Assembly (NCBI GenBank): GCA_022925895.1
Contig: JAKSYS010000702.1
Coordinates: 1-31,927, forward strand
DNA: 31,927 nt
Direction of reading: 5' to 3'
Origin: Fragilaria crotonensis
Lineage: Eukaryota > Bacillariophyta > Fragilariophyceae > Fragilariales > Fragilariaceae
The notes below the pieces were generated by a model that did not search any database, was not told the origin of the DNA, and was given only the letters and a program-made list of their open reading frames with translations. A program made the translations under genes and the position numbers. Positions 3,280 through 24,396 of this stretch are shown here, piece after piece. Numbering within the stretch: the stretch's first letter is position 1; the number at the start of each line of letters is the position of its first letter.

Positions 3280-3849
3280 GTTCGAAATTTGATTGACTTC
3301 TGACTACTATCAACATTATCTATATCGTCCAGGAAGAAACAATAACGAGTTGAAGGCTCTATTATATTGTGGACGGAATAGCTAGTTGCAACAAGAACGA
3401 CTACCGTACAAATTATTATGTAAGTACTCCGAGAATCTGTGAAAGGGAAAAAATTCTAAAAACACATCCCTTCTTAACTCTTTATCAGTGCGACGTCGGT
3501 AGATAACTACGAACAGAATACAGGGCATGCATGTAAGTCTACAGAAGACAACAAAGAATAGTGGAGTCGATTTTGCGTTAAGGGTTAAGGCGTCCTTATG
3601 GCCACAATAAGTCCCTGCAAAAGGGAAAAGGACACCTTTGTTTTGTGAAGCCGAATGCTTTTGAAGACCAGCAAAACAACATGTTCACATCGTTTCTTGA
3701 AGACACCGGAGTACTTGCCCTAGTGGTTTTCAGATTGAATTTGAGTGCATCTGAAGGTGTGGTGTTCGTCGAATTCAAATGTTGGTCACCACCCAATGAC
3801 AATGTTGTTGGCAGCAACTTCAACATATTGCACCACTAAAGGTATATGT
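3280..3849. other. No gene recognised
   Basis: Spacer after the copia fragment. It may include the element's 3' end, but I see no matching LTR, polypurine tract or terminal repeat. A short open frame at 3645-3839 (+) and an opposing one on the minus strand show no recognisable motif. Confidence 0.4.
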
Positions 3850-14772: not shown

Positions 14773-15313
14773 TTACTTAAAATACAATGTGGTGCACCAT
14801 GTACCACATGTCATTGTCATCATGGTCTCTTCCTGTATCATATTATTGCCAATCCGTTGACTTCCACGCTGTTTTATGATTGGAACTTCATTTTTAGCAA
14901 TTCTTGATACTGAACCTAATATGATGGCTGCTTTCAACAGTGATTGCAAGGTGACTTGGCCATGCCCTCCATGCACTTCATAAGAGACCTCCGTATTGTA
15001 CACAAATTCCTTGTGGGCAGTGTGACACCCTTGGAAATTTCACTTTCACACAGCCATGCCAATGACATTGTGCAGCTGTCTGCAAAAAATCCCTCAATTT
15101 GGGATAAATTGAGATACTTGTGGGTACCAGCTCAAGGTGGAAAATGAGCAGGATTTCCAGGGCCTTAAATCTGGCCCTTGAGTAGAAGTACTGCTGGAAT
15201 GTGGTTAAGCCCTGATTAGTGCAGCATTTTAGATCTAATGTAAACTCTTGTGATAGTGGATGAGGCATCACAATGTTTGTGAGAGGAATATTTATGATGC
15301 AAGGTGAAGCCAT
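14773..15313 (-). CDS. Unidentified protein-like frame, one slip
   Basis: ATG at 15313 opens 111 codons (MASPCIINIPLTNIVMPHPL and on) to a stop at 14978. Near 15030-15045 the sense appears to move one frame and continue as CHTAHKEFVYNTEVSYEVHG, then LQSLLKAAIILGSVSRIAKN, stopping at 14773. Together about 180 residues. Codon use and composition look like protein on this strand, but I recognise no family. It lies among transposon debris, so it may be part of a mobile element. Confidence 0.3.
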
Positions 15314-17349
15314 GCTGGAGCATGTCTGTGATTGAATTTGCTCATTGTGTACAGTATTTATGCATGTATTCTGAGGATTTACCTACACATAGAATCAAAT
15401 AACTGATATCAATAGGGAGGAAGAGCGGAAATTGTATGCCATCAAATGATGCTGGAGATTTGGACGAACAAATGTACCAAGGGAAATGACAAATTGCGAG
15501 TATTAATGTTTCACAGATGGCTACTGTAGTACCTAATTCAATTGATTGTGTGCCGAAGGAGCAAGAATGAGCAAAGCCTTTTCAAGGAAAGAAGCAGAAA
15601 GGTCCCGAAAATGATCATGAAGAATCTTACCCACATCATACTAGCTCTTATGATGATAGGCAACGGAACTATCATGGCCATTATCAACAGAACTGAGGCA
15701 GTAACTGCTGAACAACAACAACAATAATTACTACTGATGCTCAGGCAGAGGGTGAAGAAGTGTAAGAGGCTAAGGCAGTTACGAAGGTTGAGGAAGTCCA
15801 TGTTCATTGCATTTTTCCTGGTAAGAGGGTTATTAAAATTCAAATGGAGACAACAATCACCTGCACACATGGTGAATACAGGTCAACAAGGAAACAATAC
15901 AGGGTCCAGAAAACAGCTCAAGGTACAGAGAAGCTTTCATGATGGAAACAAAGGTGCATCAACACACAAAGCACACCATGTATATCATTGACATGCTCAA
16001 ACCTGATCAATGAATCTGTCTCCACCTTTCTAGCACTTGAGCTCATTTCTCGGCTGCTCTTTTGCTCACTGAAACTTCAGTACCAGCCTCATTATGGAAG
16101 CTTGGTTTCCCTTCACCAAAACTGGAATGACCACGAGCTTTCTACACAAGGACCCAAACACTTGGCCACTTTACTTATCAATCAGCCAAAACAAGCTTGT
16201 AGCAGAACCCAGATGTGGAGGTGCCACTAAAGCTTCTATCGACAAGTTCTTCATCTTGACTTAATGTGAAACGCCTTTCTTAGCAATGGCATCACCACAA
16301 CTACCAAATCAGCCTTCCACTTCATTGTCACAGCACCTGGCAATCTAATTAGCTGGATTGCCTCCCTAAGGAGAGCACTGCAACTTTCCATGATGACTTC
16401 ACTCAAGAAAACAATGCTAACTTGAACAGAACTCCTTGTCCAAACACAATTAATGTGCACTAATCACCACCAGCAGCAACGCAACATAAGCAGCCAAAGA
16501 GTACAGGCAGATGACAGTCAAATCAGGGCATCGTTGAACAAACGAAGGCAGTAGAACATGCTTCAGCATCATTGTTCCCGAAAACTTCTTCCTCTGAACC
16601 CGGCTGATTTGCACCTTTCACAAGCAAAAGTCTTATCAGATTGCTGTCAGTGCCTTGTGTGTGCAACTTCTTCCAGCTGGTAACAGGTCTACCTTGTCAT
16701 AATCAGCCAGCAACATTCCTCCCAGTGTCATCAATTGCTGGTGGGATGGAACCCCTGAAGAGCAGATTGCCATCCAATGAGCATTTTTCCGTGAACAAAT
16801 TTCAGCTGCCTTGATTGATGTGCCAGGAAGCAAATCTGAAATGTCTGCCAAAGGCAGTCTGATCAACCATTTGCCAGACCGCTTCACTTCATAAATATTG
16901 ACGTTGCAAGTAATCTTTGAGGTAGCTCCCAGTTATGTGGCTGATATCTGATATGCTCATCACCTTTCCTTAGCTAGAAGTGCACTGGAGCGACGATGAT
17001 GATCGAAATTGCAAGGAGGGATTATTGTCCATCATCATCAGCATTGGTGCTGCTCTTAGCTTGGAGTGGACTGCCGTTGCCAGACCATCAACTTTGACAT
17101 TATATTTGTCATCTTCAAATAGAGTACCGTACGTGGCGCTAGTATCGTGACGATGCTTCATCCACTGGTCAGTTAGTGCTGGTCTGCATAGTTCCTTAGT
17201 AGTGACAAGAAGCTATGATGTCATACTTATCAGTGGGCACTTTCAATTTCAGTCTGAGAATCTTCTGCCAACAAACCTTTCTTTTACGATTCCACCCTAA
17301 CCATTTCTCTGCTTAGTCTCCTACTTTGACGCCGATGGCAAATAAAGAG
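15314..17349. other. No recognisable gene; scattered short frames
   Basis: About 2 kb without a supportable gene. The most protein-like stretches on the minus strand are 16636-16887 (WLIRLPLADISDLLPGTSIK, then GGMLLADYDKVDLLPAG) and 16970-17161 (TYGTLFEDDKYNVKVDGLAT). They could be remains of a transposon protein but match nothing I know. Plus-strand frames at 15542-15991 are short and basic with no motif. Confidence 0.35.
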
Positions 17350-17736
17350 ACACAGTTATAATAGGTGTTACGACTACGCCTCACACACAATCTTACCAGA
17401 TTAACTTTGGTTTCAACTTTCAGCATGGCACCCCTGTGATCACTTGTGGAGATGATGAAGACAATTGTGTTCTTCCCTTCATTCACATGTTAGTATTCCT
17501 GGAAAGAAGCAGCAGAGTAAGATAACAAAAGCTTCTATTTGATAGAAACTGAATGAGATACGTCTACCGGTAATAGAGGAACCTTAACTCTTTGTGAACA
17601 TAAGCTCCAAACTCAGAATTTGGAAACATCTTGCCCAATTGCTTCTGCAGCAGTTCCAGTAGCTAGTAGGCAAGCGTTGCGACTCATTCGTACCGAGTCT
17701 GAACACCAGGCCCCTGCTTGTTTGCACAAACCTTCA
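17350..17736 (-). pseudogene. pogo/Tigger-like transposase, downstream half (left of the Harbinger insertion)
   Basis: Minus-strand reading just outside the left TIR gives RFVQTRGLVFRLGTNESQ. This is the DNA-binding-to-catalytic linker pattern of diatom pogo-like DDE transposases (RRF, LV.R.GT.ESQ). Further down (about 17430-17480) GKNTIVFIISTSDHRGAM resembles the GRKTV...STSDTKRAT strand of the DDE domain. The intervening sequence is frameshifted and the catalytic Asp residues cannot be placed. Its upstream half lies at 21228-21674. Confidence 0.65.
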
Positions 17737-17778
17737 GGCTCGTTCTTATCGAGCCTCGTTTTTTGCGGAGGTCCGCAA
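17737..17778. repeat. Harbinger left terminal inverted repeat
   Basis: Begins GGCTCGTTCTTATCGAGCC, itself a hairpin (GGCTCG/CGAGCC), then TCGTTTTTTGCGGAGGTCCGCAA. It matches the right end in inverse orientation with a 4-bp difference (an extra CTCG on the right) and scattered mismatches. Confidence 0.8.
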
Positions 17779-17981
17779 TCTTCTCATGACTTTTTCTGAC
17801 GTGGCCCATTCCAACATTCTTATCGGGAAACAAATATCAAAAACTCCGCAACCTTTGCAGACCTGTGAATTACTTCCACCACGCGTAGTATAAAGTATAC
17901 TAATACTCGGAGTACATCTTTGTAATTGGTATGCACTTGTTGGTTTCTTAGTGTCGCACACTGATCTTGCTTTCAAGTGCA

Positions 17982-19432
17982 ATGGACGTTGCTGCGACCC
18001 CCTGCCTCAACAGGAAGCGCAAGATCAAGGCATTTCCCATTGAACTGGCAAATGCGACAGATGACCGCAGGTCAAGATTTAGCTTCGCTTTGGAGCTTGA
18101 TCCAAACCGAAGGAGCAAAATATGATGGATCTGAGTCCCTTGTCGCCAAGCAGTTGCAGTCAACGTCGACAACAGGAAAGTTGTTGTTGATCTAAAGACT
18201 CTTGTCGTTGATCATCTCTGTCTGTTATGCAAAAACATAGGAGTTGTTAATTGTGGATCTGCCAATAACTTTGATTGCCGAAAGGCCCTTGCTACTTACA
18301 TCAAGTACCACGACGAGTTGGAGCGAAAGGGCCTCACTGCAACCTCTACTGCATCACGACTCACTAGCACTATATGTCGTGCGGTGAATGTTGTATTTAG
18401 CGATCAATTTGTTGAGAACTTCTTTACCGTCAACAACAACATGTCCAGACACGACCATGAACAAACCAAAAGAAACCCGAAGTCACTCTGGATTGCAGCT
18501 ACTCTTGCCCACAATTCTTGCATCGAAAGCGACGTTGATCCACATACGATGGTGCTTCTGCTCCTCCCAAGTATAACATCGACGTGTCTGTCGCAGCAGG
18601 CGAAACAGCGGAAGACGATGATGACGCAAGTACCGTTGGTTGTGGTGGAGCTGAATTTGGCACCCGTGATCCCTTCTCAACAATTCTGAACAATGATCAT
18701 GATCCTCTCATTGAAGGAAGCCTTGAGACTGACAAAGCCATAAACTTCTGGAGGTTGATATCCAATTTGATACAAAGGCGTTTCGGAAAAAAATTCTTGA
18801 CCGTTTCAAGATCCGCCGCATTATGAAGGAGAACATGACAGTCTCTGGCACACACGACAACGAGCCCTGGAATTTTGTTGAGAGTGCAATGACAAAGGTA
18901 CAAGGCTTCACCAAGACTTTTTTTGTGTATTTCTTCTACAAGCGATGCGAAGCATATGATGAGATTGACGCGGTATTCCAACCATTTTTAGATCCAGCCT
19001 TTGTTGGCGATACAACTAGCCTTGGTGGATGCAATGACAGTGACGACAAGGAAGATGGTGTGGGAAGTATTGCTACTACTTCCACGAATAGCTTAAAGAA
19101 GCAAGGTGCGAAGGTGGAGAAGAATGATGATACTAGTGCATTCGACAAAAAGCATTCACTCAAGGTCAGATGACAATACATCATGTGGAACAATCGGCCA
19201 ATCGTGAGCAAGCTCATTTTGAACTTGAACAGGAATCGGCCATTCGCGAGAAAGCTCGTTTTGACCTTCAACAGGAATCGGCCAATCGTGAAAAAGCGCG
19301 TTTTGACCTTGATCTGAACTAAGATAAGTTCTTTGCGTGTCTTGAGGTTGCAAAGGCCATGAACGATTATGAAGAGCTCTCGCAAAATTGGAGAAGGAGG
19401 CTAATGAAATGCCTTTGGTGCTGGGATTGTGA
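17982..19432 (+). CDS. Harbinger ORF1 accessory protein, frame broken
   Basis: In Harbinger elements ORF1 encodes a DNA-binding partner that helps the transposase enter the nucleus and find the ends. ATG at 17982 (MDVAATPCLNRKRKIKAF) is interrupted near 18121. The main stretch follows: LCKNIGVVNCGSANNFDCRK, ASRLTSTICRAVNVVFSDQF, DHEQTKRNPKSLWIAATLAH. After another slip (about 18580-18800) come FKIRRIMKENMTVSGTHDNE, PWNFVESAMTKVQGFTK and IDAVFQPFLDPAF. Three 14-residue repeats and LAKLEKEANEMPLV finish at 19432. The Asn-Glu-Pro-Trp motif region is what I recall from diatom element proteins of this kind. About 480 residues. The DNA-binding role is family inference; no Myb motif is visible. Confidence 0.6.
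19192..19317 (+). repeat. 42-nt tandem repeat, three copies, in Harbinger ORF1
   Basis: Units start at 19192, 19234 and 19276, each AATCGGCCAATCGTGAGCAA-like. They encode the 14-residue repeat ESANREKARFDLQQ with small variations. The charged, heptad-compatible composition suggests an extended coiled coil. Confidence 0.9.
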
Positions 19433-19680
19433 GCAATCAGATCTTCAGTCTACTATTTTGCCTTTTTTGTTTGAATTTGATATCGCAAACGTAATTAGAT
19501 AACAACGAAACTTCGACGACGAGTCTGACCTCCCATTAGTGCTGATGTCTGACCTGTGAGTTTAAGACTACTAGACAGCCATGTAGATGTGTACGTAGCC
19601 GTAGCACAGTGGGTCTAAAAACCTTCTTACCAGAACGAAACATAATGTGAACTCGGATTACAAGCTGTGACTATTTGCTG

Positions 19681-20924
19681 TTATGACACTCCCGGATGAG
19701 TGAGTTGCATATACTCAATTTCCTTTGTTGCCATCCAATCACGGTTCATTGACCACGGATTCTCGAAGGCATCTTCCATTTCTTCCCATTCAATATCAGC
19801 AGCACTCTCGCGCAACATGGTTTTGTGGGTGGTGAACCTCACATTACTTGGCGTGAATACTGCACTGTCCTGATTATTGTGTTGCTTTGCTTGGAGACGC
19901 TCGTTGATACAAAATTGTGAAGCCGTGCAATTGCTACCATCAACCTCTTCATCTTTATCATCTTAATTGAGAGCGGTCAAGCGAGAATTCCCCACTTTTT
20001 CACCATGAGCCCGAATGCCATTTCAATTCGGATGCGAAGCTGACTCGAAAAAATTGAAGTTGCCACTTCACTGGGCCATCTCACCCCTATAGATGGGTAT
20101 GAGGTGTTCACTTGCAGTGTAGGCACAATTGCCAATAGCACAATAGAGGCCAGGAAGACCTTCGACCGACGAACCTAATTTCACCATTTTGATCGCATCT
20201 CGATCCCCAATCACTCCAGGTCCTGCAACACCAAGGGACGAAGTGAAGCGACAATGATGGTCACATGCGGCCTGTATGCCTGTATGTTAAGGCCATGTGT
20301 CTGGTAATGACAAGAGAAAAAGGATTGTACGTTCTATTCCTCCTTTTTTGATGGCGTCTGAATTTGTAAGTGGTATCTATCGATGACACTGACACAATTC
20401 CGTATAGATCCTTCTTGCGTGCTTATCGTTTCAAATCCCCTCAAAGCCTCTTTGACTTCTTCCAATGTTTTCGGAAGTTTAACAGCCAAGTCATCACATT
20501 CATTGATAGCATCAATGCATTTCCAAACAACACGATAAAGCAATGCAACAGACATACCGGTGAAAATTTGATATCCGAATATGACCCACCAGCCAGATAC
20601 CGCAAACATGCATAGAGGCATCATTCTGGAAGTATTGGACCACCTCTCAGACTTCCCATGTGTCGATCAATCTCCAACTTCTCCCTGACTAAAGACAGTA
20701 GTCGAATAAAAGAGTCTTCTGACATTTGTAGGTGCCGTCTCAGATTTGGTCTGCCAGCATGCTTTGACCAAAACGCCTCCCAATGTACTAAGCTGATCAA
20801 ATATGGAGGAGATTGCTCACTTCTTTTATTCCTCCTGTTCTTCTTTGATCTCATTTCTTCCAATATAGGTTGTAGCAGTAAGCCTTGCAACAAAGGATGC
20901 AAATGTACCACCTGCTTTTTTCAT
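19681..20924 (-). pseudogene. PIF/Harbinger DDE transposase, frame broken, second Asp replaced
   Basis: HARBI1-type transposase that would cut and join the element ends. ATG at 20924 (MKKAGGTFASFVARL) leads by a slip to HLQMSEDSFIRLLSLVREKL and GSLRGGPILPE. Then CLYACLRYLAGGSYSD, FTGMSVALLYRVVWKCIDAI and CVSVIDRYHLQI (first catalytic Asp). ACDHHCRF, GVAGPGVIGDRDAIK and LYCAIGNCAYTASEHLIPI follow. The second catalytic Asp, expected in G-D-x-A-Y, is Asn here (codon at 20128-20130). SQLRIRIEMAFGLM keeps the catalytic Glu, and a tail with IEWEEMEDAFENPW ends at 19681. About 410 residues, normal for the family. At least four slips plus the D-to-N change indicate an inactive copy. Confidence 0.85.
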
Positions 20925-21073
20925 TGCTGCCAAGAACTGATTGTTACTATGAACTGTGCACAAGATTTACAGTCATAATCCCTTGCACGCTCGAGAATTT
21001 GCAAAAAAGATTTCGTGAAACATGAATTGATGGTCAGCACCAGCTTGCAGAGTCATTCTGATCCATTTGAACC

Positions 21074-21116
21074 CATAACCCCCGCACATCCAAAGAACTG
21101 AGTTGCGGGGGTTATG
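21074..21116. repeat. Perfect 13-bp-arm stem-loop near the Harbinger right end
   Basis: CATAACCCCCGCA (21074-21086) pairs exactly with TGCGGGGGTTATG (21104-21116) across a 17-nt loop. It lies about 110 bp inside the right end of the element. It may be a subterminal transposase-binding structure or a terminator-like hairpin; function is not visible. Confidence 0.85.
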
Positions 21117-21179
21117 ACCTTTGAAGCCCTCCGCAAGTTTTTTGAATTTGCGCTGACATTGCAGCTTTTTTTGCGGGAT

Positions 21180-21224
21180 TTGCGGACCTCCACAAAGAAG
21201 AGGCTCGATATGAACGAGCGAGCC
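21180..21224. repeat. Harbinger right terminal inverted repeat
   Basis: TTGCGGACCTCCACAAAGAA, then GAGGCTCGATATGAACGAGC and GAGCC. Inverse of 17737-17778, with an extra CTCG near the tip. It is followed by the TCA target duplication. Confidence 0.8.
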
Positions 21225-21227
21225 TCA

Positions 21228-21674
21228 TGCAGCATTGTACTGCACAACTTCCAATTTTTACGCAAATTCTGTAGACAATTGCGCTGCTTTAATCTTCACT
21301 ATGGAAATGGACACTGCCATGCCCTGTTTGCGAAGTTCAAAAATTAAGCAAAGTAACTCATTTTGGAATGGTGCCAGAGATGAGATTCGTCCTTGACACA
21401 GGCTCCTTGACTTGTTATTTTGTTCTTGCCCAAAGTCTCCAAGCTGCTTCAACCATATGCCGTGATGGATGTTGAGATCCTCACACGCGGTATGTTGTGA
21501 CAACCCTTCGCCCATCTTCCTCCTCACATTGCGGACAAAAGCAAGCTTCTCAAGAATTTTGAAGTGCCTTTGCCTTTGTGGAGGCAATGGTGGCGGTGGT
21601 GCTTCCAATGGTGCTGGTTATTGAATTGGTTGCCTGGGCGGTGTTGCTTGACCATCGTCCTTGTCATTGGTCAT
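21228..21674 (-). pseudogene. pogo/Tigger-like transposase, N-terminal half (right of the Harbinger insertion)
   Basis: ATG at 21674 (MTNDKDDGQATPPRQPIQ) is followed by an in-frame TAA, then the same frame continues PAPLEAPPPPLPP. RHFKILEKLAFVRNVRRKM, ACEDLNIHHGIWLKQ and LLCLIFELRKQGMAVSISIV follow, then KIKAAQLSTEF. This is the helix-turn-helix and CENPB-like region typical of diatom pogo-type DDE transposases. A second stop after STEFA is followed by KLEVVQYNAA up to the target duplication. The catalytic half continues on the far side of the Harbinger element. Confidence 0.75.
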
Positions 21675-22321
21675 AATTATATTCAATGGTGGATCTTGTT
21701 TGGACTGTAATATTAAGGAACGAGTTGCAAGAAAAACAGGAATCTTGCACATCGCTAAAGTCGAAACACGTGGTGGATTGGTGGATAAGCTCCATTTCGG
21801 AAATTTCGTGCACAATTCCCGGTGCTCAAGTTACGCTGTTCACGGAAGAAATGAATGTTGTATCGTACTACAAGTACGTACAATACTCCTGGCTTCCTGG
21901 CTGACAACGCATTCATGCTTGATACTTCGACTCTGGGTTAGTACTACCGGTAGCTGGAGTTCAACAGTACAGTTGTAAGAAGAGTAGCTATCTACTCTAC
22001 TGGAGTTCAAGTATTCGTACTACCGTATTACCTCGGAAATGCGACCGAGGTAGTACTTCTCTTATAGGATTCCACCGATCTTGCGGATTAATTAGAACTG
22101 GTACTATGTTGCATAATAGGGGTACTTGATGACGTTTTTCGTGCGTTTGCGTGGGGCATATGAACTGCAAACGATAGTACCAGCATTTTGGGTTCTGCAA
22201 CATCTGTTGCACCTACGGTATCTTTACGTGCTTCGTATATGGAACGAATGCAACTTTTTTCCCGAGGTACTCTTCTACGTTTTGCAATACTAGCTCTACT
22301 AGTTTGTGGGTACCCTGAGCC
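21675..22321. other. Spacer, no gene seen
   Basis: GTAC- and GTACT-rich from about 21840 to 22060. Minus-strand frames at 21997-22212 and 22088-22363 are low quality. It may contain the upstream sequence of the plus-strand hydrophobic frame. Confidence 0.4.
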
Positions 22322-22642
22322 CTGAGACCAGATTTCCAGAATGACACAAAACACAAGCCGCAACGAACCATCGACGATGCCATTGGCGGCTTCGCTGCCG
22401 GAGTCGCCTTGCGCGGTCTCGTTACCACACAGATTGCGGATGATGTCAATCTCCCTTCCTTGATCTTGGGAACGCTCTTTGGAGGAGCCTACTTCGCGGG
22501 AGCAGCTTCTTTCGCAGCCTTGCGTTCCTCGGCCATTCTTTGTCGCTCCATCTCCTGCTGTCGTCGCCTCTCAGCAGCTTCTTGGGCCTATGCCTCGCGC
22601 TCTGCCTCTTTTTACAATGACGCTCAGCTGTACCACCTATAG
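22322..22642 (+). CDS. Possible small hydrophobic (membrane) protein fragment
   Basis: An open plus-strand frame without its own clear start reads DDAIGGFAAGVALRGLVTTQ and ADDVNLPSLILGTLFGGAYF. Composition and spacing suit two membrane helices. Beyond about 22500 it becomes the antisense of a coiled-coil gene and is probably not real there. A splice acceptor such as TTTCCAG at 22334-22340 could supply an upstream exon. I do not recognise the family; the alternative is that it is an antisense shadow. Confidence 0.3.
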   Translation: MRPDFQNDTKHKPQRTIDDAIGGFAAGVALRGLVTTQIADDVNLPSLILGTLFGGAYFAGAASFAALRSSAILCRSISCCRRLSAASWAYASRSASFYNDAQLYHL

Positions 22643-23110
22643 CAGCGGCCTTCTTAATCTTCGCCCGCTTGTTCATGACGACACGCTTCTGCATCAGCAG
22701 CCTAAGCCGCACGTTTTTGTTCTTGCTGAGCGATGACGTGGTTGAGCCAACGCAGCAACTTCCGCCGCTTTCTTTGCCTCAGCTTGTTCGCAACGACGTG
22801 CTTCTGCTTCAGCATCCTTGGCGGCAAATTCTTCCTCTCGTCGATATTGCTGAGCCAACGCAGCCATTGGGCTGCATTTTTCGAATCGCTTTCTTGCTGC
22901 GCCTGTCGGGAGCAGAGCTCTGCTGCCTGCGTTCTTGTTCGCGACGTTGTTACTAGCAGAAGCCTCCGCCAGGCGCTGTTTATCCGCTGCAGCAACGGCA
23001 GCAGCCTTCTTGGCCTCAGCCGCGACATGCTTCAGCCTTGGCAGTAAGTACTTCTTCTTCCTTGCGACGCGGTGCTGTGCTGCAGCTGCTCAGATCGACT
23101 CTTCTTTGTG
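22486..23110 (-). CDS. Ala/Glu/Arg-rich coiled-coil protein, frame broken, 5' end unresolved
   Basis: The minus strand keeps one compositional theme through several frame changes: HVAAEAKKAAAVAAADKQRL, then AALAQQYRREEEFAAKDAEA and EARRCEQAEAKKAAEVAALA. It ends EAAERRRQQEMERQRMAEER, KAAKEAAPAK, stop at about 22486. Heptad-like Ala/Lys/Glu/Arg pattern implies a long helix; units such as EQAEAKKAAEVAALAQ partly repeat. Internal stops lie in the middle (about 22620-22720), so it is either an indel-damaged gene or a pseudogene. No domain that names it. Confidence 0.45.
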
Positions 23111-24396
23111 CTGCTTTTCATGCAAAATTGCGGATACCCCCTGTTGGGCTTAAGCTCCTCCTATCAAAGTTGTCTTGGCAGAATGGGACTGCCTCTCAAT
23201 CCCAATGTTGCTAATAGTAGCTCATCTGTTGTTCATTGTACTTGTGCTTTTTTACTGTTAACACTTTTAGCGTTACTTGACAATCTACCTTCAGAATACT
23301 CGCCAGTACTCCGTTTTAACACGGCAAAAGCACGGGGTTTTTCCTGCTTGGCGAATATACCATGCCCTACATGGTTGCTTTATTAGTTTCATGAATTTTA
23401 GGTACATCCGTAGTACTCTGTCGAACTGCAGCAATACACGAATACAGTACACGAATAGAAGAATACAAGTACTGAACAGATCGTGCATTTTGCATTACAT
23501 ATAGGCATTTTGCTACATGTAGCAAAAAGTACAGTACAGTACAGTACAGTATCGTACTGCCTATTTGTCGACGCGCAACGCGCGTTCGAGCAATCCTGGT
23601 CGATTCCCTCATTTTCCGCGTCGCAAGAAGAACAAGCATGATGGCCAAGATTCGCTGTCGCCTCCTAAGACTAGCAGTTTGTTTCAGCTCATTTTCTTTA
23701 GGAAGATACACATTGTGAAGGTAAGATGGCATATAGAACAATATGCAAAGAATTCTATGCACTGGGTAAAAAGAAAGACGATGTGTTGCTGCGCACCACC
23801 GATCATATTGTTAGAGACCAGAAAGCGTATTTTCATGTTTCTCGATCTACTTCCAATCAGAAGAGCATTCGCATTCCCTTACCTGTGCCAATGATATTAC
23901 TGCGAGGACAGGAAAGTACTGCAAAGTGCTATTTCGTTTCGTTTCAACCTTGAACCATCACATCCTTTCGTCCTCAACCCGTGCAGCAGCAGCACGTACA
24001 GGAAAAACGTTTCCAAAGAGCAAAACTGGTCAAAAGAACGTTTGTCCTCAACCCTAGAATGTGTGACTTTGATATTTCTTGAATACCGTGAAAATGTCCG
24101 ATGACACTTTGTGCTGTACTGCACTGAATACTATAGAGATGTGTGACGATGGAACACATGCAGACTCGCAGTACGGTACAACTAGTAGTATGCGGGAATT
24201 CATTGCGACTCAAGACTTCGCATCTCTGATGCAACTATGGTTCGCCAACTCTTGCTGATTCCTCAAGCGCCAACAACCAAATCATGGCGTATTGGAGCAG
24301 CTACCAGCCCGCAGGACGAGCTTAACTTCGAAGCCTGGCGCGCTGACCTGCGATTTATCGAGCATGTCATCGACCACTCCTTTGTCTTCACGGCCT
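23111..24396. other. Spacer with GTACA microsatellite, no supportable gene
   Basis: Contains a pure GTACA repeat (about five units, 23528-23551) within a GTAC-rich stretch (23400-23560). Frames at 23565-23894 and 23726-23953 (+) overlap in different phases and show no motif. The large minus-strand gene ends at 24397, so its 3' UTR lies here. Confidence 0.45.

Follow-up and report, generated by a model that had tools for sequence, protein, structure and literature searches.

A PIF/Harbinger-type element lies within a pogo-like transposase gene

The stretch analysed here (hereafter the window) is contig C672 of the 62-Mb Fragilaria crotonensis assembly, at its full length of 31,927 nucleotides; the other C-numbers denote contigs of the same genome. 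At 17737–21224 the window carries a decayed PIF/Harbinger-type element of 3,488 bp with imperfect inverted repeats at both termini, which is bracketed by two TCA triplets at 17734–17736 and 21225–21227, the two copies of its target-site duplication. The left terminal repeat occupies 17737–17781 on the plus strand (GGCTCGTTCTTATCGAGCC...) and the right one 21176–21224 on the minus strand, the latter with four extra bases (GAGC) that are absent from a second version of the locus on C797. Inside the element lie the relic of a second open reading frame (ORF) at 17952–19429 on the plus strand, and the relic of a DDE_Tnp_4 transposase at 19684–20930 on the minus strand, with stops and frameshifts relative to the copy of the element on C394. 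Pfam scanning of the window's own pieces gave sub-threshold noise only for the Harbinger pieces and no family for the pogo piece; the transposase relic was alignable to the C394 protein. The original prediction, made from the letters of the window, had placed the element and both TCA copies at these same coordinates, exact to the base. Three tandem 42-bp copies at 19192–19317, inside the second ORF, encode a charged repeat (ESANREKARFDL-like), and the transposase relic has a 49-bp insertion at 20277–20325 compared with C394, which is also found in the C797 version.

The flanks of the element belong to one pogo-like transposase gene on the minus strand. Its N-terminal piece lies at 21228–21572 and has one internal TAA, and a short continuation (RFVQTSRGLVFRLGTNESQ...) lies at 17638–17733. 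When the element and one TCA were deleted in silico, a single minus-strand frame was read across the joint, QYNAA*RFVQTSRGLVFRLGTNESQ, with one TGA at the joint. This frame had been anticipated, but with other letters: the joint peptide reads RFVQTSRGLVFRLGTNESQ and not RFVQTRGLVF..., in which one Ser had been dropped. Residues 39–157 of a related protein on C383 (L028) match 21572–21228 and its residues 159–180 match 17733–17665, so that the two flanks meet at adjoining residues. At the DNA level, C410 (L020) is contiguous across the same joint, its bases 3354–3441 matching window positions 17638–17735 (E = 1e-15) and its bases 3440–3601 matching 21225–21382 (E = 5e-47). C410 is therefore a paralogous empty site, where the frame reads QYNAARRFVRSHGLVFRLGTNESQ through the joint, without interruption as AARRFVRSHGLVFRLGTNESQ, and where one triplet, TCG, stands against the window's two TCA. 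The codon that is TGA in the window encodes Arg in 16 of the 17 pogo loci that cover it, including C410 (CGA), and Gln in one (C549), one further locus being uncovered; its assignment to an Arg position was thus correct. The proposed fit of the window to the family spacing is off by one residue: six residues separate RRF from LV in the window and five in the four relatives checked (one of these with an extra V after LV), that is, the window has one extra codon.

The outer gene had also been described as two halves of a transposase. One gene it is, but the halves are unequal: the pogo remnant comprises ~115 N-terminal residues in the right flank, where it contains further stops, and about 25–30 residues in the left. 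With four related proteins and the C410 DNA as queries, no DDE_1 domain was found in the window or in the examined part of C797, and the DNA similarity of C410 to the window ends at 17638 on the left and at 21382 on the right, which together indicate that the outer gene is a fragment rather than two halves. Pogo similarity on the left likewise stops at ~17638, and 17350–17637 is without a demonstrated pogo match. Among the relatives, DDE_1 was recognised in both of the proteins scanned (C603 and C383; Pfam 2.2e-23 and 4.9e-22) and DD35D spacing was found in four of four; the catalytic residues, here and in the C394 transposase below, were chosen by known motifs. Ten pogo loci have a common 5′ end (CTACCGTAAA..), which was not found near the window copy (two matches elsewhere, 2.9 expected).

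A second full-length copy has an empty allele

The genome was searched for further copies and empty sites and, besides the empty paralogue, yielded one other full-length copy, of 3,535 bp, at C394:80883–84417 (L021:2884–6418). It is 93.6% identical to the window copy over aligned bases (89% by BLAST's count), ends at the same terminal bases and is flanked by TTA duplications on both sides. An allele without the element, carrying a single TTA, was found on C739 (L050), with flanks 98.5% and 99.0% identical to those of C394. This C394/C739 pair fixes the ends and the duplication of the family and shows its later activity, and the C394 insertion is later than the split of its own alleles. Copies ending at different bases and unrelated flanks were looked for, and neither was found; the nested insertion, the element ends, the 3-bp duplication and the relative order of the two elements were accordingly upheld. 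The C394 copy is present on one allele only and its terminal repeats do not differ in their first 30 bases, a sign of recent movement.

The C394 copy has open frames for a transposase of 309 codons, with DD35E spacing (residues picked by motif), and for the second ORF of 512 codons, stop to stop. Pfam assigned DDE_Tnp_4 above the curated cut-off to the transposases of C394 (9.4e-16), C101 (2.3e-15) and C531 (3.9e-9), and a search of PDB sequences with the C394 transposase gave no match below E 0.8. Pfam scanning of the second ORFs of C394, C101 and part of C531 gave no Myb match; a weak SAP-like match (SAP_new25) was below the cut-off in C531 (0.0016) and C101 (0.01), with none in C394. C73, C869, C871, C118 and C324 carry short derivatives (0.57–1.2 kb) whose ends are those of the C101 element; they form a set that resembles miniature inverted-repeat transposable elements (MITEs) and was probably mobilised by the window element's group.

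The second version of the locus shares lesions with the window

C797 is identical to the window at 98.5% over 6.1 kb on the right and at 97.1% over 1.1 kb on the left, and at 94.9% over a 2.2-kb stretch containing the shared part of the element. It retains the element's right end with the adjoining TCA, and lacks the segment 17349–19870, which comprises the left pogo piece and the left part of the Harbinger element. Most likely C797 is the other haplotype; a recent duplication of the locus is possible. Relative to C394, the transposase relics of the window and C797 have three stops and three frameshifts in common, and the insertion and part of the decay are therefore older than the split of the two versions. 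Two further stretches of the window are absent from C797: ~1.2 kb at 15025–16209 and ~1.4 kb at 22032–23412, the first part of the latter (from about 22014) recurring at over 30 further sites in the genome, which makes another polymorphic mobile element probable here.

Target triplets differ between two groups of elements

The triplet beside the element was scored wherever an end was recognisable, so that of 118 transposase matches only loci with recognised ends entered the count, and alleles were counted once (C90/C531, C756/C319, C869/C73 and C797/window). For the window element's group, nine loci were scored at both ends, with TCA in the window, TTA at C394 and TGA at C101, C531, C319, C73, C871, C118 and C324; one end was scored at seven, with TGA at C170, C100, C162 and C678 and TCA at C799, C408 and C55. 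The triplet is thus TNA at all 16 loci and TCA/TGA at 15 of them (8/9 both-ended and 7/7 one-ended; 14/15 without C170). The original prediction had regarded TCA as a departure from the usual TWA; the TCA duplication is real, but it is no exception in this group, where TCA/TGA is the rule. When the eight both-ended TCA/TGA loci were read as TGA, a C preceded the triplet at five and a G followed it at three. The terminal repeats start with GG, except that C319 and C756 each have one end with GAG. Transposase pieces of the group, where present, are mostly 56–91% identical to C394, with two N-terminal pieces at 47% and 51%, and several of the loci are short derivatives assigned by their ends alone. 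A second group, with ends GGGYCGTTCTTAYCAAG, is flanked by TTA/TAA at seven of seven loci (C163 twice, C525, C51, C599 twice and C348), where two imperfect rows, C525 with TAA/TAG and C348 with an extra G beside TAA, were both counted as TWA. Its transposases, where present, are 40–43% identical to C394, one short piece reaching 51%. The contrast between the two groups gave 3e-5 in Fisher's test over all loci, and the avoidance of a C/G middle base by the second group gave p 0.0003.

The scan with the first end pattern gave 31 matches, 11 of them without mismatch, and a backward control gave 30 in all, so that one-mismatch matches alone mean little; 24 of the 31 were used or are alleles of loci used. 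Five matches, on C19, C218, C279, C329 and C506, were left uncounted, as neither a partner end nor family-like inner sequence was seen. C107 and C631, mutual alleles, were dropped from the count: their flank is TTG and their inner sequence is unlike the family. The second end pattern gave 16 matches and none in the control, and only C34, whose end is altered, was left out. The ends of C101, C531, C100 and C170 were placed by looser scans, and no partner ends were found for C170, C100, C408, C55 and C678 within the stretches examined.

Other features of the window and the genome

ORFs at 1774–2995 of the window resemble Ty1/copia reverse transcriptase and RNase H. In the genome, 18 of 19 silicon transporter matches exceed the Pfam cut-off; 14 control genomes gave one match, below it. 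The presence of these transporters agrees with the diatom origin that the original prediction had assumed.

Discussion

The reading that we prefer, with a probability of roughly 93%, is that a PIF/Harbinger-type element inserted into a pogo-like gene that was probably already dead, that the family of the element moved again later, and that its group targets TNA, mostly TCA/TGA. The empty paralogue, the second copy with its empty allele and the relatives together establish the ends, the duplication and the order of events, none of which has to be guessed. On this reading the pogo-like gene would have lost its function first, its Arg codon CGA changing to TGA and TCG on the plus strand to TCA. 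An element with a DDE_Tnp_4 transposase on one strand and a second ORF on the other entered the gene and duplicated a 3-bp target, a step borne out by the empty sites, presumably by cut-and-paste with a staggered cut, as DDE transposases are known to act. The insertion precedes the split of the C672 and C797 versions, as their common lesions show, and the same family moved again later, as the C394 copy with its open transposase frame and empty allele shows. The duplications further suggest that the transposase of the window/C394 group prefers TNA, mostly TCA/TGA, over the usual TWA.

That the pogo gene probably already had the TGA stop when it was hit is suggested by the triplets, since both copies in the window are TCA, as is the single triplet of C797, and the codon in C410 is CGA. 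Because the plus-strand triplet went from TCG to TCA, the target type of the group, when CGA became TGA, the stop itself may have created the landing site of the Harbinger element. A gene still carrying its Arg codon when hit, with TCG as the target and both copies turned to TCA by independent CpG decay, seems improbable to us, though it deserves some weight: the paralogue on C410 does have TCG, and both TCG copies would have been in CpG context. Late decay, however, would require that both window copies changed and that the right copy of C797 came to the same state. In this group TCA/TGA predominates, and TCG was absent from all 16 loci scored. The pogo gene also has a further stop, the TAA, in both versions of the locus, which may have arisen before or after the insertion. 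Much less probable is that C410 is a site of precise Harbinger excision rather than an empty site. Precise repair of excision sites of mPing, a PIF-like element, is described as possible, with one target copy left, in the excerpted text of PMC4561436, but the C410 flanks differ from the window by 16–22%, which marks C410 as a separate pogo copy, and 11 of 12 related loci have a frame that continues unbroken past the point of the joint (for the twelfth, L031, the frame displayed stops short of it). Finally, chance continuation between unrelated flanks, which the shortness of the left pogo piece (about 25–30 residues) might invite, can be dismissed, since that piece scored 36.2 bits, where the best of 1000 dinucleotide shuffles of the left flank reached 26.6, and the C410 DNA matches both flanks, adjoining there.

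Several points weigh against the prior stop, the early insertion and the target preference that we favour. The base present before the insertion rests on parsimony, and two later CpG changes of TCG could yield both TCA copies; the lesions common to the two versions were counted with C394 taken as the unbroken state; and the search turned up no element-free allele at the window's own locus. When only both-ended loci are compared, the groups differ at p = 0.055. TCA and TGA make up 68% of the TNA triplets in 134 kb sampled, and against this background 15/16 exceeds by a small margin what a simple TNA preference would give (p about 0.02). C170 owes its place to a match with four mismatches, and chance matches reach the same level. 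The uncounted matches on C19, C218, C279, C329 and C506 are flanked by ACT, AAG, ACT, TCA and CGA, respectively, and the four other than TCA would oppose TNA if they were true ends; in our judgement the five are chance matches.

The nesting itself is ordinary, and the split in the middle base of the target is the interesting part. With TCA/TGA and TTA/TAA side by side in one genome, the two groups can be compared to ask what part of a Harbinger transposase recognises the central base of the target, and an annotation rule limited to TWA would miss elements flanked by TCA/TGA. A bolder proposal, which we put forward tentatively and with the odds somewhat against it, is that diatoms carry a distinct PIF/Harbinger-like group whose transposase would select T(C/G)A and not T(A/T)A, whose partner protein would be SAP-like and not Myb/SANT, and whose landing site here would have been created by the stop that helped kill the pogo gene. 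If it is true, two groups with opposite choices of the middle base would coexist in one genome, and the switch in specificity could be mapped onto their proteins. Searches of open-licence PubMed Central (PMC) papers brought up none that deals with TCA/TGA as the target of Harbinger elements in diatoms.

The comparison with known systems draws on excerpts of the papers cited. The outer gene is like pogo DD35D families such as Passer and Fot/Fot-like (PMC7386202) in the DDE_1 domain, the DD35D spacing and the helix-turn-helix-like N-terminus, as seen in its relatives; no TA-flanked pair of terminal repeats, a trait of pogo elements, was found in seven diatom relatives. The inserted element is like PIF/Harbinger of the PHIS superfamily as described in PMC4482050, with a DDE_Tnp_4-type transposase, two ORFs, terminal repeats starting with G, a length of ~3.5 kb and 3-bp duplications. 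It differs in that the duplication is given there as TWA and is TCA/TGA at 15/16 scored loci here, and in the second ORF, which gave no Myb/SANT match but, in two of the three copies scanned, the weak SAP-like one. Like mPing, it has a 3-bp target; mPing with TCA ends inserted into TTA/TAA in 45 of 46 cases and into TCA in one, and the middle base of the mPing target tolerates C/G in excision assays (PMC4561436, in the part excerpted). C|TNA|G is reported as the target of Tc4 elements, which belong to another superfamily (PMC11071193), and of NuwaII, a member of the PHIS superfamily with two ORFs and terminal repeats of 13–46 bp that mostly start with GG, for which the excerpt of PMC4482050 lists 12 species among animals, basidiomycetes and land plants, with no diatom. 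The diatom group has the GG ends and the two ORFs in common with NuwaII and TNA at its 16 scored loci, and is unlike it in a middle base that is nearly always C/G. By the published description, it appears to resemble NuwaII in target choice more than it does the classical TWA elements.

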